Assembly: GCA_029211065.1 (NCBI GenBank) | Contig: JARGFK010000028.1 | Span: 1 to 45,993, forward strand | Direction: 5' to 3' | DNA length: 45,993 bases | Origin: Desulfobacterales bacterium | Lineage (GTDB): Bacteria; Desulfobacterota; Desulfobacteria; Desulfobacterales; JARGFK01 | Part shown: in pieces, positions 20,953 through 30,466 of the stretch | Numbering within the stretch: position 1 is the stretch's first letter | Layout: each line of letters starts with the position of its first letter | Notes under the pieces: generated by a model | Told to the model about the DNA's origin: nothing | Database searches by the model: none | The model's input: the letters and a program-made list of their open reading frames with translations, nothing else | Translations under genes and position numbers: made by a program

Positions 20953-21702
20953 ATGAAAATAAACGTTCATCTTATCTTTTGGGTTATTTTGACGCTTATC
21001 TTGCCGGCAACTCCGGTCCGGTCCTTCGCCGAAATGGATCACAGCATTTATGCGGGCTTGCTCGAAAAATATGTTAAAAACGGTGTAGTGGACTATAACG
21101 GGTTTAAACACGACGAGACCCGGCTGGATCAATATCTCAATCTACTCGAAGAGACGGATACAAAAAACCTTTCGCAAGGCGAGCAGTTTGCCTTTTACAT
21201 CAACGCTTACAATGCCTGGACCATCAAATTGATCCTTACCGGTTATCCTGGCGTGAAATCCATAAAGGATCTGGGAAGCATTTTTAAGAGTCCGTGGAAA
21301 AAACAAATCGCGCGAATAGATGGGGAGGTAGTCACATTGGATCATATCGAACATGACATCCTGCGGCCTCGCTTTAAAGACCCCCGGGTTCATTTCGCCA
21401 TAAATTGTGCAGCTAAATCGTGTCCTCCGCTGCGGCCGGAACCCTATCGGGCGGATATCCTGGACCGGCAACTGGATGAAATGGCGCGGGCATTCATCAA
21501 TGATCCCCGGTCCAACCGACTTGAAGGGCAAACGCTTTATGTCAGCAGCATATTTAAATGGTTTTCAGAGGATTTCAATGATGATGTGGTCGGTTTATTT
21601 CTCAAATACGCGCAAGGGGATCTGAAAAATAGGCTGGAAGACAGTAAAAGCAAGTTCAAAGTAGCCTACCTTGACTATGATTGGTCGCTCAACGGCAAAT
21701 AG
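20953..21702 (+). CDS. Exported DUF547 domain protein
   Basis: The product has 249 residues, with an N-terminal signal peptide (hydrophobic stretch then RSFAEMD near residue 27). The DUF547 hallmarks follow: YAGLLEKYVKNGVVDYNGF, FAFYINAYNAWTIKLIL, LDHIEHDILRPRF, HFAINCAAKSCPPLR, and a C-terminal KWFSEDF. The domain is papain-fold related with a conserved Cys/His, but its reaction is unknown. It starts a plus-strand operon; in many proteobacteria DUF547 genes neighbour flavin disulfide reductases and TVP38 proteins, as here. Confidence 0.93.
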   Translation: MKINVHLIFWVILTLILPATPVRSFAEMDHSIYAGLLEKYVKNGVVDYNGFKHDETRLDQYLNLLEETDTKNLSQGEQFAFYINAYNAWTIKLILTGYPGVKSIKDLGSIFKSPWKKQIARIDGEVVTLDHIEHDILRPRFKDPRVHFAINCAAKSCPPLRPEPYRADILDRQLDEMARAFINDPRSNRLEGQTLYVSSIFKWFSEDFNDDVVGLFLKYAQGDLKNRLEDSKSKFKVAYLDYDWSLNGK

Positions 21703-21737: not shown

Positions 21738-23191
21738 ATGGCAAACTATGATTATGACATGGGTATTATTGGAGGGGGTGCGGGGGGCCTGACCGTAGCA
21801 TCCGGGGCAGCTCAGTTGGGAGCCAAAACGCTGCTGATTGAAAAGGAGAAGGAACTGGGAGGCGACTGTCTCACTATGGATGCGTGCCCAGCAAGACGCT
21901 GATTAAGACTGCCCACGTATACCACCAGATGAAAATTGCACCGACCTACGGCTTGCCCGAAGTCGCGCCTCCGCCGGTCGATTTCCGGGAGGTATCCCGA
22001 CGCATCCGGTCTGTCATCGCTGCGATTCAGGAGCACGACTCCGAGCAGCGGTTCTGCGGTCTGGGGGTAAAGGTGGAGTTCGGCCAGGCGCAATTTACGG
22101 ATGATCACAGCATTTTGATCAACGGCCGGACCTACACGGCTAAGAACTGGGTGATCGCTACCGGCTCCTCGGCGGCGATACCGCCTATCGACGGGCTTAC
22201 CCGCACCCCCTTTATCACCAACCGCGAAATCTTCTACCTCGACCGCCTGCCGGCGTCGATGATCGTGCTGGGCGGTGGTCCGATCGGCATCGAGATGGCC
22301 CAGGCCTTCAATCGACTCGGGTCGCTCATCACGGTGATCCAGCGCGGCGAGCAGATCCTCGCAAAGGAAGACAAGGACCTGGCCGACACGGTCATGGAAA
22401 CAATGCGCAGCGAGGGCGTCGACTTTCGTCTGAACGCCGCGGTGGTCGGCACCAAGGACCTGGGCGCTGAGCGCGAAGTGACTATCCGCGATGTCAACGG
22501 CGGGATTTCAACCATCAGGGGCGAAACGCTGCTGGTGGCCCTGGGACGGAAGCCGAACACCGACGGCCTTGGGCTTGAAGCGATCGGCGTGGAACTGGGG
22601 AGGCAGGGCATCAAGGTCGACAACCGACTCCGGACGACACGCAAGCATATTTATGCGGTCGGGGACGTCAATGGCGGTTTTCAGTTTACGCACGCAGCCG
22701 GCTACGAGGGCGGCATCGTGGTAAGCAACGCCATTTTCCATCTTCCCCGAAAGGCGGACTACACGTTTCTGCCTTGGTGCACCTACACGGATCCGGAGCT
22801 TGCCAGCATCGGGATGAATGAGAAAACAGCGGCAGCCAAGGGGATCGACTATTCGGTTTGGACCGAAGCGTTTATCAGCAACGACCGGAGCTTGGCCGAA
22901 GGAGAATTGACTGGAATGGTCAAGCTGCTCTTAGACGAAAAAGAGAAGCCAATCGGTGTCCAGATCTTAGGGCCAGGCGCAGGAAACCTGATCAGCGAGT
23001 GGGTGGCGGCACTCAACGGCAAAGTCAAGCTGTCTACGATCGCTGCGGCTATCCATCCCTACCCGACCATCGGTGAAATCAACAAGAAGGTGGCCGGCAA
23101 CTTTTTCTCGCTGAAAATTTTTTCAGATAAAGTCAGAAAAGGCCTCAAATTCTTCTTTCATTTGAAAGGCAGGGCCTGCGGACAAGCATAA
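21738..23191 (+). pseudogene. Mercuric reductase/dihydrolipoamide dehydrogenase-like flavoprotein, frameshifted near 21872
   Basis: With one added base the gene encodes about 484 residues. ATG 21738 follows AAAAGGAG. FAD motif IIGGGAGGLTVASGAAQLG is in the first frame. The redox disulfide should read GGDCLHYGCVPSKTL, but one C is missing after CTC (GGCGACTGTCTC-ACTAT), so the first frame ends at 21902 and the rest is in another frame from about 21884. After the break come GTP-like ATGSSAAIPPIDGL, the NAD motif VLGGGPIGIEMAQAFNRLGS, YAVGDVNGGFQFTHAAGYEG and the dimer domain ending HPYPTIGEIN. The active-site histidine is in AIHPYPT. It resembles the mercuric-reductase-like group next to DUF547 and TVP38 genes. 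It may be intact in the cell if the missing base is an error. Confidence 0.88.
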
Positions 23192-23234: not shown

Positions 23235-24143
23235 ATGAAGATGGCAATGATCGGTTTGGGACGGATGGGAATGAATATGGCAAAGCGGCTTTTGCAAGGC
23301 GGCCATGAGGTTGTCGCTTACAATCGCTCACCGGAAAAAACCCATGCACTGGTTAAAGAAGAAGGGGCGATCGGGGCTTATTCGCTTGCCGAGGTGGTTG
23401 AAAAACTTCCAACACCCCGGATACTATGGCTGATGCTGCCGGCGGGAAGAGCTGTTGATGACCACATCGACGTACTCAAAGATCTTCTCACGCAGGGCGA
23501 CATCATCATAGACGGCGGCAACACTTTTTACAAAGACGACCGGAAACGGGCTGAACGTCTGCATGATAAAAATATCCGGTATGTCGATGTGGGCGTAAGC
23601 GGCGGCATATGGGGCCTGAAGATTGGTTACTGCCTGATGATGGGTGGTGACAGACAGGTAGTTGAAAAGTTGGAACCGATTTTTAAAACCCTTGCCCCTA
23701 AGGAAGGCTATCTGTATTGCGGGGCAACGGGCGCCGGGCACTTTGTCAAGATGGTCCATAACGGCATTGAATATGGGATGATGCAGGCTTATGGCGAAGG
23801 GTTTGAAATTCTTGAAGCGTCTTCCTACAGTAAAGACTTCGATTATCAGAAAATCGCCCATCTCTGGAACCAGGGGAGTGTGGTGCGGTCCTGGCTTCTG
23901 GAACTATTGGAGGATGCATTCGGCCATGACGCCCGCCTGAAAGATATTAAGGGTTTCGTTGAAGATTCAGGCGAAGGCCGCTGGACACTGCAGCAGGCAA
24001 TCGATACGGCCGTGCCGGCGCCGATTATTGCGCTTTCCCTGTTTCAGCGGTTCAGGTCCCGACAGGAAAACACGTTTTCCGACAGGGTTCTTTCTGCCCT
24101 CAGACGGGATTTTGGCGGACACGCTGTAAAGGACGCTGAGTAA
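23235..24143 (+). CDS. gnd: 6-phosphogluconate dehydrogenase, decarboxylating (short form)
   Basis: The product has 302 residues, the short GndA/YqeC-like type. The N-terminal nucleotide fold reads MIGLGRMGMNMAKRLLQGGH. The substrate loop is VSGGIWGLKIGYCLMMGG (signature GxSGG), and the catalytic K-x-x-HN appears in FVKMVHNGIEYGMMQAYGEG. It converts 6-phosphogluconate to ribulose 5-phosphate with CO2 and NAD(P)H. It has an AAGGAG ribosome site and is followed 38 nt later by zwf, so two oxidative pentose-phosphate steps are adjacent. Confidence 0.96.
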   Translation: MKMAMIGLGRMGMNMAKRLLQGGHEVVAYNRSPEKTHALVKEEGAIGAYSLAEVVEKLPTPRILWLMLPAGRAVDDHIDVLKDLLTQGDIIIDGGNTFYKDDRKRAERLHDKNIRYVDVGVSGGIWGLKIGYCLMMGGDRQVVEKLEPIFKTLAPKEGYLYCGATGAGHFVKMVHNGIEYGMMQAYGEGFEILEASSYSKDFDYQKIAHLWNQGSVVRSWLLELLEDAFGHDARLKDIKGFVEDSGEGRWTLQQAIDTAVPAPIIALSLFQRFRSRQENTFSDRVLSALRRDFGGHAVKDAE

Positions 24144-24181
24144 TATCCAAATCTATCCTATAGTCGTTGCGGAGAACCGAT

Positions 24182-25744
24182 ATGAATGAAAGCAAAGTGT
24201 CAAGACAGCTCCAGCAGAAATGGGTAAAGGCATCCTGTGTCCCGGATCCCGGGTCCATGACCGCAGGCGATGCCTTGGAAAAGTGCATCGATTCGTGTAC
24301 CCTTATTATTTTGGGTGCTACTGGCGATTTAACTACCCGAAAGCTGATCCCGGCCCTGTTTAATCTTTATCTGATGGAAAGATTGCCAGACCCTTTCTCA
24401 ATCGTTGGATGCGGACGGACGGCTATGGACGATGACCAGTTTCGCACCAACATGGCCGAGGCATTAAAGGATTCAGATCCATCGAGTTCTGAAAAGCAGA
24501 CCGGGTTTCTTTCCCTTCTCCATTACCGGCGCATTCAGTATGACGACAGTGCAACCTTTCATGATCTTGCGACATCGTTGCGCGAACTCGACGGCAAGAT
24601 GGGTACGGGCGGGAACAGACTATTCTATCTGGCCCTTCCGCCGACACTTTATATGCCGGTAGCCCGAATGATCGGACAGGCGGATCTCGCTTCAGAGGGT
24701 GAACGGAACAATGGTTGGGTCCGGCTGGTGGTGGAAAAACCTTTCGGCCGGGACCTTGCGTCAGCCGTCGAACTGGATCGTGGGATTCATGAATATTTCA
24801 AGGAACATCAAATATTCCGGATTGATCATTATCTGGCCAAGGAAACGGTTCAGAATGTATTGATGTTCAGATTTGCCAATGCCATTTTTGAACCGCTGTG
24901 GAACAGAAGGTACATAGACAGTATCCGCATTTCCGCCACCGAAACCCTGGGGGTCGAACACCGGGCCGGCTACTATGAGCAGGCCGGCGTCATCCGTGAC
25001 ATGTTCCAGAATCACATGATGCAGCTACTGGCCCTTACGGCCATGGAACCGCCATCTATATTTGGGGCCGACCGCGTCCGGGATGAAAAGGTCAAGGTTT
25101 ACCGGTCACTTAGGCCCTTTCGGACGGATTCCATGAAAGATTATCTGGTTCTTGGCCAGTACGGAAGCGGAACGATTTCGGGGCAGGTTGTCCCCGCCTA
25201 CCGGGATGAAGTTGGGGTCTCACCCGATTCCCCAACGCCGACCTATGCCATGATGAAGGTCTACCTGGATAACTGGCGCTGGCAGGGAGTGCCGTTTTAC
25301 CTTGTATCCGGAAAACGTCTCCAGCAAAAACGGACTGAGATTTCAATTCAATTCAAACCGGTGCCTCATTCCTTGTTCAGAAATATTCTGGGAGAAACGA
25401 TTATTGCCAACCGTCTGGTCATCGGTATTTATCCGGACGAAAGAATTGCGCTTACTTTTCAGACGAAAACACCGGGAGCCCAGGTCAGTCTTCGGTCCGT
25501 GACCATGGATTTTCACTACCACCAGCAACCCTTGGAGCAGCCGTTGGAAGCCTATGAAAAAGTGCTGCTCGACTGCCTGCTGGGGGATCATATGCTTTTC
25601 TGGCGTCAAGACGGCGTTGAGACCTGCTGGGCTTTTCTGACACCCATTTTATCCACATGCGAAAATTGCGGCGACAGAGCAACCATACTCCATTTTTACG
25701 AATCCGGAAGCAAGGGACCGCAAGCGATAGAAAATATTATATAA
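24182..25744 (+). CDS. zwf: Glucose-6-phosphate 1-dehydrogenase
   Basis: The product has 520 residues from ATG 24182 (GGAG upstream). The nucleotide site is LGATGDLTTRKLIPALFNLY near residue 40. The active-site signature RIDHYLAKE appears near residue 214, with the catalytic histidine, and EKPFGRDLASAVEL precedes it. The C-terminal half carries the beta-sheet dimer region. It oxidises glucose 6-phosphate to 6-phosphogluconolactone. No 6-phosphogluconolactonase gene is beside it; the lactone may open spontaneously or the gene may lie elsewhere. Confidence 0.97.
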   Translation: MNESKVSRQLQQKWVKASCVPDPGSMTAGDALEKCIDSCTLIILGATGDLTTRKLIPALFNLYLMERLPDPFSIVGCGRTAMDDDQFRTNMAEALKDSDPSSSEKQTGFLSLLHYRRIQYDDSATFHDLATSLRELDGKMGTGGNRLFYLALPPTLYMPVARMIGQADLASEGERNNGWVRLVVEKPFGRDLASAVELDRGIHEYFKEHQIFRIDHYLAKETVQNVLMFRFANAIFEPLWNRRYIDSIRISATETLGVEHRAGYYEQAGVIRDMFQNHMMQLLALTAMEPPSIFGADRVRDEKVKVYRSLRPFRTDSMKDYLVLGQYGSGTISGQVVPAYRDEVGVSPDSPTPTYAMMKVYLDNWRWQGVPFYLVSGKRLQQKRTEISIQFKPVPHSLFRNILGETIIANRLVIGIYPDERIALTFQTKTPGAQVSLRSVTMDFHYHQQPLEQPLEAYEKVLLDCLLGDHMLFWRQDGVETCWAFLTPILSTCENCGDRATILHFYESGSKGPQAIENII

Positions 25745-25757
25745 CAGGAGAAAACAG

Positions 25758-26456
25758 ATGGAATTAACTGCCAATAAGCTACCCGATAGACGTAACAAAG
25801 CATGGGCGAAAGCCCTCATATTTGTGTTTTTTATTATTGCGGCCATCATTTTAATCCGCTTTACGCCAATCCAGAATTATCTCACGGCCGAAGCTCTGGG
25901 GAGCTTCTTAGATGCTTCCGGTTTTTGGGCGCCGCTTGTCTATATGGTGCTTTATGCCGGGGGAGTTTGTCTGTTTTTGCCCGGAACCTTGCTCACCGGT
26001 CTCGGCGCCGCTATTTTCGGTCCTTATTGGGGGTTTTTATATGTGTGGATTGGCGCCATGGTTGGGTCGAGCGCCGCCTTCTTTATTGGACGAACCCTGG
26101 GGAGGGATTTTGCCGCTTCGCTGATCGGTGATCGACTGAAAAAATATGACGACGCCATCGAACGAAACGGCTTTGCCACCGTCCTGTATCTTAGGTTGGT
26201 CTATTTTCCGTTTACGCCCATGAACTTTGGAATGGGACTAACCAAGGTACGCTTCTGGGACTATTTTGTAGGAACCGGTCTGGGCATTATCGTAGGGACT
26301 TTCATATTTACCTTTTTCATCGGAACTCTGAAAGAAATATGGGCCTCCGGCAACTGGGGAGAGCTGATATCCTTTAAGGTTTTCTTTTCAATAGGGCTTT
26401 TTGTCTTTTCGTTTTTCATCCCTAAGATCATTAAAAAGGTAAAGGGCGAAAAATGA
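25758..26456 (+). CDS. TVP38/TMEM64 family inner-membrane protein
   Basis: The product has 232 residues. Family features are SGFWAPLVYMVLYAGGVCLF, PGTLLTGLGAAIFGPYWGFL, GAMVGSSAAFFIGRTLGRDF and LRLVYFPFTPMNFGMGLTKV, in a protein with about five membrane segments and a lysine-rich end. An AGGAG ribosome site precedes ATG 25758. It lies between zwf and the broken glk. It is a distant paralogue of the protein at 1772-2554. It probably acts in the envelope; its link to the sugar enzymes is only positional. Confidence 0.92.
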   Translation: MELTANKLPDRRNKAWAKALIFVFFIIAAIILIRFTPIQNYLTAEALGSFLDASGFWAPLVYMVLYAGGVCLFLPGTLLTGLGAAIFGPYWGFLYVWIGAMVGSSAAFFIGRTLGRDFAASLIGDRLKKYDDAIERNGFATVLYLRLVYFPFTPMNFGMGLTKVRFWDYFVGTGLGIIVGTFIFTFFIGTLKEIWASGNWGELISFKVFFSIGLFVFSFFIPKIIKKVKGEK

Positions 26457-26490
26457 ATTGGGTCTTAAATTTAATCATGGAAGATATCAG

Positions 26491-26879
26491 ATGAGGACGT
26501 CAACGGATAAAACATGTGTTTTGGCTGGCGACATTGGCGGGACAAAAACGAACTTGGGGCTTTTCCTCCCCAAGCCATCACTGAAGCTGCGTTGACAGGC
26601 AAAAACGCTGCTTGCGTTCAAGCGCTGAATATCTTTGTCTCCATTTTCGGCGCAGCTGCCGGCAACTTTGCCCTGACTGGAGCGGCCATGGGCGGAGTTT
26701 ATTTGGGAGGCGGGATTTCTCCGAAGATTTTGCCCAAATTAACAGAAGGTATCTTCATGGAAGCTTTTATAAACAAGGGTCGCTTTAAGACCTTTCTTGA
26801 GCAGGTACCTGTTAAGGTTGTTCTCAACGATAAAGCCGCCCTTATCGGTGCGGCCTATTGTGCAGGATCGGCCCTATAA
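26491..26879 (+). pseudogene. glk: Glucokinase gene with a large internal deletion
   Basis: The start (ATG 26491) encodes VLAGDIGGTKTNLGLF, the phosphate-binding N-terminus of glucokinase. About 20 codons later the sequence jumps to the C-terminal region (ALTGKNAACVQALNIFVSIF, then GGVYLGGGISPKILPKL, KGRFKTFLEQVPVKVVLNDK and AALIGAA). Roughly 200 codons in the middle, including the glucose site and the catalytic Asp, are missing. The two parts are in different frames, with the junction near 26560-26570, so no fused product can form. Position between zwf and rpiA fits a former hexose/pentose-phosphate operon. Confidence 0.88.
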
Positions 26880-26927: not shown

Positions 26928-27695
26928 ATGGCAAATGATCCATCGATGGACGCTCTTAACAAACTGAAACAAGCGGCCGCTTACCGAGCGGTTGAACTTG
27001 TAAAAAGCGGCATGGTTCTAGGTCTCGGCACGGGCAGCACCTTTCGGTTCGCATTGGAAAGACTGGCGGACCTTTTAAACCGGAAACGACTGGAAAATAT
27101 TCAGGGCATTGCCAGTTCCTTTGCTACTGAAAAAATGGCAAAATCTCTTGGGTTTCCGCTAACGACGTTTGCAATTCATCCGAAAATTGATCTAACCATT
27201 GATGGTGCAGATGAGATAGATCCGGATTTAAATATGATTAAAGGTGCCGGCGGCGCCTTACTGAAAGAGAAAATTTTGCAGCAGGTAAGTCGTAGAGTCG
27301 TTATTATCGCAGATGAGAATAAGCTTTCTCCCCGCCTGGGAACCCACGGCCCCTTGCCGGTTGAAGTCATCCCCTTTGCTTGTAGAATAGAGGAGATTTT
27401 TCTTCAATCTCTTGGGGCATCGGTTTCCTTGCGAATGGATGTGGATGGAAGTCCCTATCGGACAGATCAGAGCAATCTGATATTGGATGCTCATTTCGGG
27501 CCAATTTCCGCTCCCAAAAACCTGGCTGTCCTCTTAAACGAGCGTGCCGGGGTGGTTGAACACGGGCTTTTTTTAGATACGACATCCGATGTTATTATCG
27601 CCGGCACGAAAGGGATAAAACATCTTAGGCGAGGAGTTTTGAATTTGCAAACAAACCCTTCAAAGCCAGGACATGATCGGACAAACAACCATTGA
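26928..27695 (+). CDS. rpiA: Ribose-5-phosphate isomerase A
   Basis: The product has 255 residues. Family motifs are VLGLGTGSTFRFALE near residue 28, TIDGADEIDPDLNMIKGAGG near 87 and LKEKILQQVSRRVVIIADENK (catalytic Asp, Glu and Lys region). GTKGIKHLRRG marks the normal end, after which a 20-residue tail follows. It interconverts ribose 5-phosphate and ribulose 5-phosphate, completing the branch from gnd. ATG 26928 has no clear ribosome site; ATG 26946 is an alternative. Confidence 0.95.
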   Translation: MANDPSMDALNKLKQAAAYRAVELVKSGMVLGLGTGSTFRFALERLADLLNRKRLENIQGIASSFATEKMAKSLGFPLTTFAIHPKIDLTIDGADEIDPDLNMIKGAGGALLKEKILQQVSRRVVIIADENKLSPRLGTHGPLPVEVIPFACRIEEIFLQSLGASVSLRMDVDGSPYRTDQSNLILDAHFGPISAPKNLAVLLNERAGVVEHGLFLDTTSDVIIAGTKGIKHLRRGVLNLQTNPSKPGHDRTNNH

Positions 27696-27721: not shown

Positions 27722-27895
27722 ATGAAAGGTAAAATGCAAAATTGTATCGATGCGTACACACAGGCATGTTTGGAGAAGGGATCTAATCCGGCGGAAATGA
27801 CCGAGGCCATTCATGTCGCAACCGCCATCCGAGGCGGCGCGTCTTTGGTCCACGGAGTTCAGATGCGCAACATTTCTGAAAAATTGTCTATTTAA
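27722..27895 (+). pseudogene. Truncated AhpD-like (carboxymuconolactone decarboxylase) peroxidase gene, C-terminal half
   Basis: The remaining 57 codons read MQNCIDAYTQACLEKG, then EMTEAIHVATAIRGGASLVH and GVQMRN. This is the second half of the AhpD-like protein that commonly accompanies ArsS (arsenosugar biosynthesis-associated peroxidase-like protein). Intact members have about 110 residues and a CxxC redox site. Here only the second cysteine of that site is left, and the position of the first is a methionine. An in-frame TAA at 27713-27715 and rpiA ending at 27695 leave no room for the missing half. Whether the ATG at 27722 is still translated is unknown. Confidence 0.75.
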
Positions 27896-27949: not shown

Positions 27950-28963
27950 ATGCTTGAAATCTGCACACAACTAAAAGAATATATGAACGAAAACCGGACA
28001 GATTCAAAAATCGATCCATTCCGGTTGACCCTGGCAAAGCACGGGTTAAAATTACTACGGGAAAAGACGCGAACGCTGCAGGTTAATGTCGGCCTTTTGT
28101 GCAATCAGACTTGCCAGCACTGCCATTTGGATGCAGGCCCTAATAAAATAGAAAATATGGATATAGACACGCTCAATAATGTGGCGGCATACGCCCACCG
28201 AAGCAAGTTTGAAGTCATCGACATCACCGGTGGCGCGCCTGAACTGAACCCCAATATATCGGAAATCGTAGCAAGACTTTCTCCCTTGGCGCCGAGAATT
28301 ATGTTGCGTTCCAACCTTTCTGCCTTGAACGACGGGAAAAGAGATGAACTGATGTCTCTGCTAAAGTCGAATGCCGTGGTAATTTTTGCCTCTTTCCCAT
28401 CATTGAATCTGGCCCAAACCGAGGCCCAGCGTGGCGCAGGAATTTTTAAGATGAGTATCGATGCATTGAGAAAACTGAATGCGCTTGGTTATGGCCGGGA
28501 AGGTAGCGGTCTGGAGCTGAATCTGGTTTCCAATCCGACCGGTGCTTTTCTTCCGCCCTCACAGTTTCAGACGGAAAAGCGGTTTAAGCAAGTGCTTGAA
28601 AAAAAATGGGGCGTTGTTTTCAATCAGCTTTTTACGTTTGCAAATGTTCCCCTGGGCAGATTTCGAAAATGGCTTGTCCACACTGGCAATCTTGACCGTT
28701 ACCTGCAAAAGCTGGCATATAATTTCAATCCTTGCGCCGTTGAGGGGGTTATGTGTCGAACGCTTGTTTCTGTTTCCTGGGATGGATATCTTTTTGATTG
28801 CGATTTTAATCTTGCCCGCGGTATGTATATGGCACAACGAAAAACGCACGTCTCTGAAATGTCCGGACCCCCTGTAATAGGAAACCCTATCGTGACAGCC
28901 GATCACTGTTATACCTGTGCGGCAGGGTCAGGTTTTACCTGAGGTGGAGCTATCGCGACCTGA
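27950..28963 (+). CDS. arsS: Arsenosugar biosynthesis radical SAM selenoprotein ArsS (Sec at TGA 28940-28942)
   Basis: The product has 337 residues when TGA 28940 is read as selenocysteine (residue 331); the true stop is TGA 28961-28963. The radical SAM cluster motif is CNQTCQHCHLDAGP at residues 51-64 (CxxxCxxC), followed by DITGGAPELNPN. The C-terminal region has NPCAVEGVMCRTLVSVSWDG, FDCDFNLARGM and the family ending HCYTCAAGSGFT-U-GGA, which corresponds to the GAGSSCGG-type ending where many relatives have Cys or Sec. ArsS acts in formation of arsenosugars from methylated arsenic and SAM. GGAG precedes ATG 27950. No arsM is in the window, and the usual AhpD-like partner upstream is truncated. 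Confidence 0.9.
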
Positions 28964-28972
28964 GTTCAGGTT
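28957..28972 (+). other. Candidate bacterial SECIS hairpin of arsS
   Basis: GACCTG (28957-28962) pairs with CAGGTT (28967-28972, one G-U) around loop AGTT. The loop starts 21 nt after the TGA and has G then U at positions 2-3, as in known bacterial SECIS loops. The hairpin spans the real stop codon, as expected when Sec lies a few residues from the C-terminus. Confidence 0.7.
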
Positions 28973-29003
28973 ACGGCATCATTTACACCTTAAAGGACAT
29001 AGC

Positions 29004-30466
29004 ATGGAAGCTGTTAAACAGTATAAAAACGACCGGTTTAAAATCGCTATAAGGCTTTTGTTCCGGTTCATCACAGCTGTTCTCATTCTATCGATGATCG
29101 CCTGTACAACCGCCTACAAGGTGCCGGATCTGAAGGGCTTATATAATAGCATGGTTCAGAATGAAAGCCCGTACCGAAACCCGGTGATACTTATTCCGGG
29201 TCTGCTTGGTTCCAAACTGGTCGATAAAGATACCGGCTCCGTGGTATGGGGCGCCTTTGGTTTAAATACGATAAGCCCGCGAACTGCCGAAGGTGCCCGA
29301 CTTATCGCCATTCCGATGTTTAAAGGGAAAAAGCTTGAGGAAATGTGCGATAATGTCGAATCTGCCGGGACCCTCGACAGAGTTCAGTTTAATTTTTTAG
29401 GTTATCCCCTGGAACAAACGACGTATGCAAATATTCTGAGGGTACTCGGTATTGGCGGATATCGAGACCAAAACCTCGGGGAAGCCGGTGTTATCGATTA
29501 CGGCAATCGCCATTTTACCTGTTTCCAGTTCGATTACGACTGGCGCCGGGATATTGTGGAAAGCGCTAAAAAGCTGGACGTCTTTATCAAGGAGAAAAAA
29601 AATACGTTCAACTTGAAATTGAAAAACGCTTCGGTATTAAAGATTATGATGTTAAATTTGATATTGTTGCCCATTCCATGGGCGGGCTTGTTGCTCGTTA
29701 TTATCTTAGGTACGGGAGTGAGGATTTACCACCTGACGGCAATATTCCGAAAATAACATGGGCCGGTAGCCGGCATGTGGAAAATTTGGTCATGATCGGC
29801 ACACCAAATGCCGGTTCTGTTGATATGTTCGTCAGTCTTGTTGATGGCTTCCGTCCGGCTTTATTATTACCATATTATCCGCCTGCGGTTTTGGGCACCA
29901 TGCCTTCTTTATATCAGTTATTACCGCGAAATCATCAAAAACCGGTGCTGGATGAAAACAAACTTCCGATAGAGGATATTCTCGACCCTGAACTTTGGAT
30001 ACAAAAAGGCTGGGGACTGGCAAATCCGAAACAGGACAGCGTATTAAGGTCGCTCTTTTACGATATCGAGAGCCATGAAAAAAGGCGAGAGCTCGCTCTC
30101 AATTTCCTGCACATGGCTTTAAGCCGTGCAAGACAATTTTCAGCTGCAATGGATATACCATCCAAACCACCCACTTCCCTTAGGATGCTGCTTGTGGCAG
30201 GTGATTCTGAAAAAACCAATAAAACGGTTCAATACGATTCAAAAGGAGGACTATCCGTCATTGAAACGGGACCCGGTGACGGAACCGTATTGCGCAGCAG
30301 TGCACTTGGTGATTGGCGCTCGGCCGACAACCAGCATAGCCGGTTAATATCCCCGATACAATGGAACCAAGTCCTTTTCCTGTTTTCAAATCACCTTGAT
30401 CTTACAAAGCAACCTGGATTTACGGACAACCTTTTATATTTTTTATTAGAAAGCCAGAAAGATTAA
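29004..30466 (+). pseudogene. LCAT-like alpha/beta-hydrolase lipoprotein, one frameshift near 29595-29602
   Basis: With one added base the gene encodes about 487 residues. A basic start and hydrophobic segment end in a lipobox (SMIAC, Cys near residue 34), so it is a predicted lipoprotein. NPVILIPGLLGSKLVDKDTG is the start of a lecithin:cholesterol acyltransferase-like lipase domain. The nucleophile elbow AHSMGGLVARYYLRYG lies after the break; the first frame instead runs into a nonsense hydrophobic tail ending at 29756. The break is in an A run (eight present, nine expected for KEKKKY). Later parts include VMIGTPNAGSVDMF and the region of the catalytic Asp/His (GDGTVLRSSALGD). It should act on lipids or esters in the envelope. 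It may be functional if the missing base is an error. Confidence 0.83.

Follow-up and report, generated by a model that had tools for sequence, protein, structure and literature searches.

An apparent stop codon in the arsS gene of a Desulfobacterales bacterium, located within a 45,993-nucleotide stretch of DNA (contig JARGFK010000028.1, hereafter ‘the window’), almost certainly specifies selenocysteine (Sec), judging from sequence comparisons, and thereby adds seven residues to the C-terminus of the predicted protein. The explanation that we consider best, and in which we place high confidence, is that SelB and a hairpin would direct Sec insertion at position 28940 of ArsS, that translation would stop at 28961, and that the enzyme is likely to adenosylate an arsenical. 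The features of the gene are:

27950..28963, + strand: arsS, radical SAM (seleno)protein of 337 amino acids, with Sec as predicted residue 331 and the true stop TGA at 28961–28963
28940..28942, + strand: UGA predicted to be read as selenocysteine (TGA in 43 relatives and paralogues, Cys codon in 15 others)
28943..28963, + strand: predicted coding extension GGAIAT and true stop (codon-periodic conservation in the 32 Sec forms whose second stop is equally spaced)
28957..28972, + strand: putative upper stem-loop of a bacterial SECIS (GACCUG-AGUU-CAGGUU) that spans the true stop (fold and comparison of Sec forms)

By standard translation, the arsS open reading frame (ORF) comprises positions 27950–28942 and encodes 330 amino acids from an ATG, ending in ...CYTCAAGSGFT before the TGA. 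A preliminary description, made from the raw sequence, had proposed an in-frame continuation past this codon giving GSGFT-U-GGA, and the frame indeed runs on as GGT GGA GCT ATC GCG ACC TGA (28943–28963), so that the full read-through product has the C-terminus GSGFT-U-GGAIAT, the extension consisting of U and six further residues. The same description had named the protein ArsS, an identification that the profile search supports: the read-through protein matches NCBIfam TIGR04167 with 375.6 bits (curated equivalog cut-off, 300 bits), residues 35–335 being aligned to profile positions 2–303 of 303, and the match thus extends to the final profile position and includes the C-terminal Sec/Cys region. 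TIGR04167 is rSAM_SeCys, named ‘arsenosugar biosynthesis radical SAM (seleno)protein ArsS’ by NCBI. The Pfam domains of the protein are Radical_SAM and DUF3641, and its sequence contains the radical SAM motif CxxxCxxC and conserved C-terminal cysteines, followed by Sec 331 eight residues after the conserved CxxC. A search of solved structures returned weak matches only, to the radical SAM core, and we do not place Sec in the fold because AlphaFold2, run on the window ArsS and one relative, reached a pLDDT of only 29.

Sec is proposed at a position at which, among 58 relatives and paralogues assembled in a tree, TGA is found in 43 and a Cys codon in 15, the latter being more distant and ending in GSSC-xG, which agrees with the earlier expectation of a Cys counterpart of the GAGSSC-GG type. 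(Left out of the tree were L018 and L089, which are cut by contig ends, and L102, in which the end motif was not found.) The closer ArsS relatives in the same order and class have exactly one TGA, at the Sec position. Forty-two of the 43 Sec forms are grouped on the same side of a branch supported at 100/99, are mostly 37–44% identical to the Cys forms and, with a single exception (GFS-U-AG), end in GFT-U-xG; the remaining Sec form, a paralogue on contig C136 of the same genome (GST-U-TG), is placed next to the Cys forms. Residues C51, C55, C58, C269 and C284 are invariant in the 58 sequences, as are C320 and C323, the invariance of these last two being partly imposed by the C-terminal CxxC motif search with which the sequences were collected; the first five cysteines and G333, located after Sec, were not imposed by the search motif. 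Alignment with close relatives, suggested earlier as a way of finding out whether they end before this position, indicates that they do not: the closest named relative, a Desulfuromonadales metagenome-assembled genome (MAG) sequence (L100) that is 79% identical over 337 residues, has the tail GSGFT-TGA-GGSTET-TGA and the same hairpin as the window arsS.

Conservation beyond the first TGA follows the reading frame. In the 32 Sec forms that share the spacing of the second stop, the codon third positions (columns 6, 9, 12 and 15 after the TGA) are 44–56% conserved and columns 4, 5, 7, 8, 11, 13 and 14 are 88–100% conserved, the exception being column 10, which belongs to the first two codon positions and is 59% conserved. 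Because third positions vary and most others are conserved, the stretch between the two TGAs appears to be translated. Past the true stop, 75–100% conservation is confined to columns 25–31 (GUUCAGG), which are part of the hairpin, and the values from column 32 onward are 28–56%. A second occurrence of CCTGAGTTCAGG in the genome (contig C8), read by eye in three frames, had no sign of a selenoprotein gene.

The conserved columns beyond the stop lead to the hairpin, which has a 5′ arm at 28957–28962 (GACCUG), a loop at 28963–28966 (AGUU) and a 3′ arm at 28967–28972 (CAGGUU). Its stem has 6 bp, 20 nt lie between the first TGA and the AGUU loop, and the fold of 28934–28984 has an overall energy of −13.7 kcal/mol. 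These values are within the published limits for bacterial SECIS elements (bSECIS), namely a loop of 3–9 nt, a stem of 4–16 bp, a G in the first two loop positions and a distance of 16–37 nt from the UGA (PMC13188914). Considered in the window sequence by itself, the hairpin is close to chance: its z-score of −1.41 is not significant, 23 of 200 shuffles fold equally well, and 5 of 127 control frames score as high in a simple hairpin score at comparable distance, the controls being mechanical open frames of at least 200 codons that end in TGA, some of which are not genes. Nevertheless, the proposal of an AGUU-loop SECIS at the right distance holds up across the family: 35 of 36 Sec forms have a hairpin whose loop starts 18–21 nt past the UGA, each with a score of at least 11, a value reached by 11% of the controls. 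In the 26 gap-free alignable sequences, standard pairs make up 92.3% of the cells of the stem, whereas shuffles give 84.4% and sliding the stem never gives more than 49.4%; the covariation score exceeds that of all 500 shuffles, with changes on both sides in only two of the six pairs. No Rfam family matched the window at the gathering thresholds.

One alternative, a product of 330 residues with normal termination at the first TGA, is in line with mechanical ORF calling, which ends there, and with the borderline hairpin of the single sequence; yet we judge it very improbable, given the presence of TGA at a Cys position in 43 sequences, the codon-periodic conservation past it and a conserved hairpin that extends beyond the second stop.

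Independent evidence that this organism decodes UGA as Sec comes from the genome, which encodes a tRNA-Sec with a TCA anticodon, SelA, SelB and three SelD genes (L119, L120 and G000:C37:30071-30988), each of which has one in-frame TGA. The N-terminal GxGU or CGU stretch is the known site of Sec or Cys in SelD, and in the two SelD genes inspected the TGA lies within this stretch and is followed by hairpins. Three SelD genes are an unusual number for one genome. Taken by comparison, the sequences demonstrate that the arsS UGA is translated, that Sec and Cys exchange at its position, that the hairpin is conserved and that the Sec machinery is complete, and we infer that Sec is inserted in the cell. 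In the proposed mechanism, SelB bound to the hairpin at 28957–28972 would bring Sec-tRNA to the first UGA (28940); the ribosome would then open the hairpin and add Sec-Gly-Gly-Ala-Ile-Ala-Thr, and termination would occur at the second UGA (28961), itself within the hairpin. One hairpin would thus recode the first UGA, and the second, built into that hairpin, would terminate: its U and G are part of the stem and its A is the first loop base, an overlap common to most Sec forms. Bacterial SECIS elements are described as residing in coding regions, and elsewhere as ‘typically’ doing so (PMC13188914). The element of the window arsS is not wholly inside the coding region, its 3′ half being located beyond the true stop, and this untranslated half is a small departure from the usual bSECIS; because the wording is only ‘typically’, it does not exclude the gene from the bacterial selenoprotein genes.

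ArsS is a radical SAM enzyme that adenosylates arsenic in oxo-arsenosugar biosynthesis (PMC12159101). The function proposed for the window protein is that of its family: by analogy, ArsS with its CxxxCxxC motif would most likely adenosylate a trivalent methylated arsenical, as in arsenosugar synthesis, and Sec, in the place of the Cys of other ArsS, would probably serve as a soft As(III) ligand or a redox/thiol partner. The neighbourhood of the gene bears on this assignment. The window operon has the order DUF547, FAD oxidoreductase, gnd, zwf, VTT, glucokinase remnant, rpiA, truncated TIGR04169, arsS, lipase-like and DUF3047, and includes:

20953..21702, + strand: DUF547 protein, a recurrent arsS neighbour
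21738..23191, + strand: MerA/lipoamide-dehydrogenase-like FAD oxidoreductase, a recurrent arsS neighbour, frameshifted near 21880
23235..24143, + strand: gnd-type 6-phosphogluconate dehydrogenase
24167..25744, + strand: zwf, glucose-6-phosphate dehydrogenase
25758..26456, + strand: VTT/TVP38-type membrane protein, a recurrent arsS neighbour
26928..27695, + strand: rpiA, ribose-5-phosphate isomerase
27737..27895, + strand: 5′-truncated TIGR04169 peroxidase-like (CMD) gene (profile positions 58–109 of 109)

Near arsS, several relatives also have the FAD oxidoreductase, VTT and DUF547 genes, and TIGR04169 is found directly upstream of arsS in those whose flanks were read. Two further arsS paralogues with an in-frame TGA are encoded in the genome, one (L055) on contig C136 beside genes for DUF547, a HAD phosphatase, pgi, tkt, zwf and tal, and the other (L056) on contig C32, 3′ of a TIGR04169 gene that is frameshifted within a run of Gs; two of the three arsS copies thus adjoin pentose-phosphate genes. 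The only ArsM of the genome above the cut-off is encoded on another contig (C2). This abundance of pentose-phosphate genes in the window operon, the location of arsM and the separation of the Sec clade (GFT-U-GG) from the Cys forms, to which it is mostly 37–44% identical, could be read to mean that the methylated arsenical used by the characterised ArsS is not the substrate of this clade. We consider this unlikely, as the equivalog cut-off of TIGR04167 is passed and the TIGR04169 partner is retained in relatives. The possibility that the Sec clade, here located beside pentose-phosphate genes in a genome with three arsS copies, combines its conserved double-UGA layout with an undescribed branch making a sugar- or nucleoside-arsenical is likewise unlikely.

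Several neighbours in the window appear truncated or frameshifted, which may reflect either a decaying operon or assembly errors. The remnant of the arsenosugar-associated TIGR04169 gene between rpiA and arsS lacks its N-terminal half, whereas the gene is full length upstream of arsS in relatives; its candidacy as a further selenoprotein (CxxU) was ruled out by the CPYC of the relatives. The glucokinase is in pieces (26490–26879), its C-terminal part matching the family, an N-terminal glucokinase-like stretch (LAGDIGGTKTNLGLF) lying just upstream in another frame and the middle seemingly missing. A lipase/acyltransferase-like gene at 29004–30466, with an HSMGGL motif and a lipoprotein-like N-terminus, is split by a frameshift, and a homologue is also located 3′ of arsS in L100. 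Because neighbouring genes look damaged, the arsS locus is possibly inactive: Sec decoding would be real for the family, but the window copy, next to a truncated TIGR04169 partner, a C-terminal glucokinase remnant and frameshifts in the FAD oxidoreductase and lipase-like genes, would no longer be functional. We regard such loss of function as improbable, since arsS itself is full length with its catalytic motifs and SECIS intact, each of the two frameshifts might stem from a single-base error in the assembly, and the close relative L100 retains arsS, tail and hairpin.

The selenoprotein family to which the gene belongs is already catalogued, and the window arsS is a well-supported added member rather than a discovery. 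The characterised ArsS of Cheng et al. (2021, Angew Chem; cited in PMC12159101) belongs to the same family by name, and the window protein differs in being a Sec form with a predicted activity. Another predicted radical SAM selenoprotein, AAR34688.1, is a Geobacter protein. The predicted selenoprotein families of bacteria given in PMC13188914 (in which reference 13 is Zhang and Gladyshev 2005) include TIGR04167, with the motif GxxU, which is also among the predicted selenoproteins of PMC9312934; AAR34688.1 (TIGR04167, GxxU) appears in both, sharing family and predicted Sec with the window protein. A search for ArsS together with selenocysteine found no paper in the library searched. Compared with TIGR04167 ArsS in general, the window protein has the same full-length match, CxxxCxxC motif, Sec/Cys end and adjoining TIGR04169 partner, and nothing places it outside the family; what differs is that its clade is all Sec in our sample and ends in GFT-U-GG instead of GSSC-GG. 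The earlier statement that normal annotation would lose the C-terminus accordingly stands only for annotation without selenoprotein-aware models, the Sec form being catalogued.

The reading of a Sec-ending ArsS from raw sequence has thus proved correct, and the comparison adds approximately forty ArsS sequences of the Sec form, whose well-conserved SECIS spans the real stop codon. A SECIS that straddles the true stop and the pentose-phosphate neighbours of two arsS copies are mildly notable. For arsenic and selenium biochemists, the relevance lies in an arsenic-handling radical SAM enzyme with Sec near its C-terminus, even in a family that is already listed, and the double-UGA layout would constitute a natural test of the ribosome on two UGAs six codons apart, one recoded and one not.
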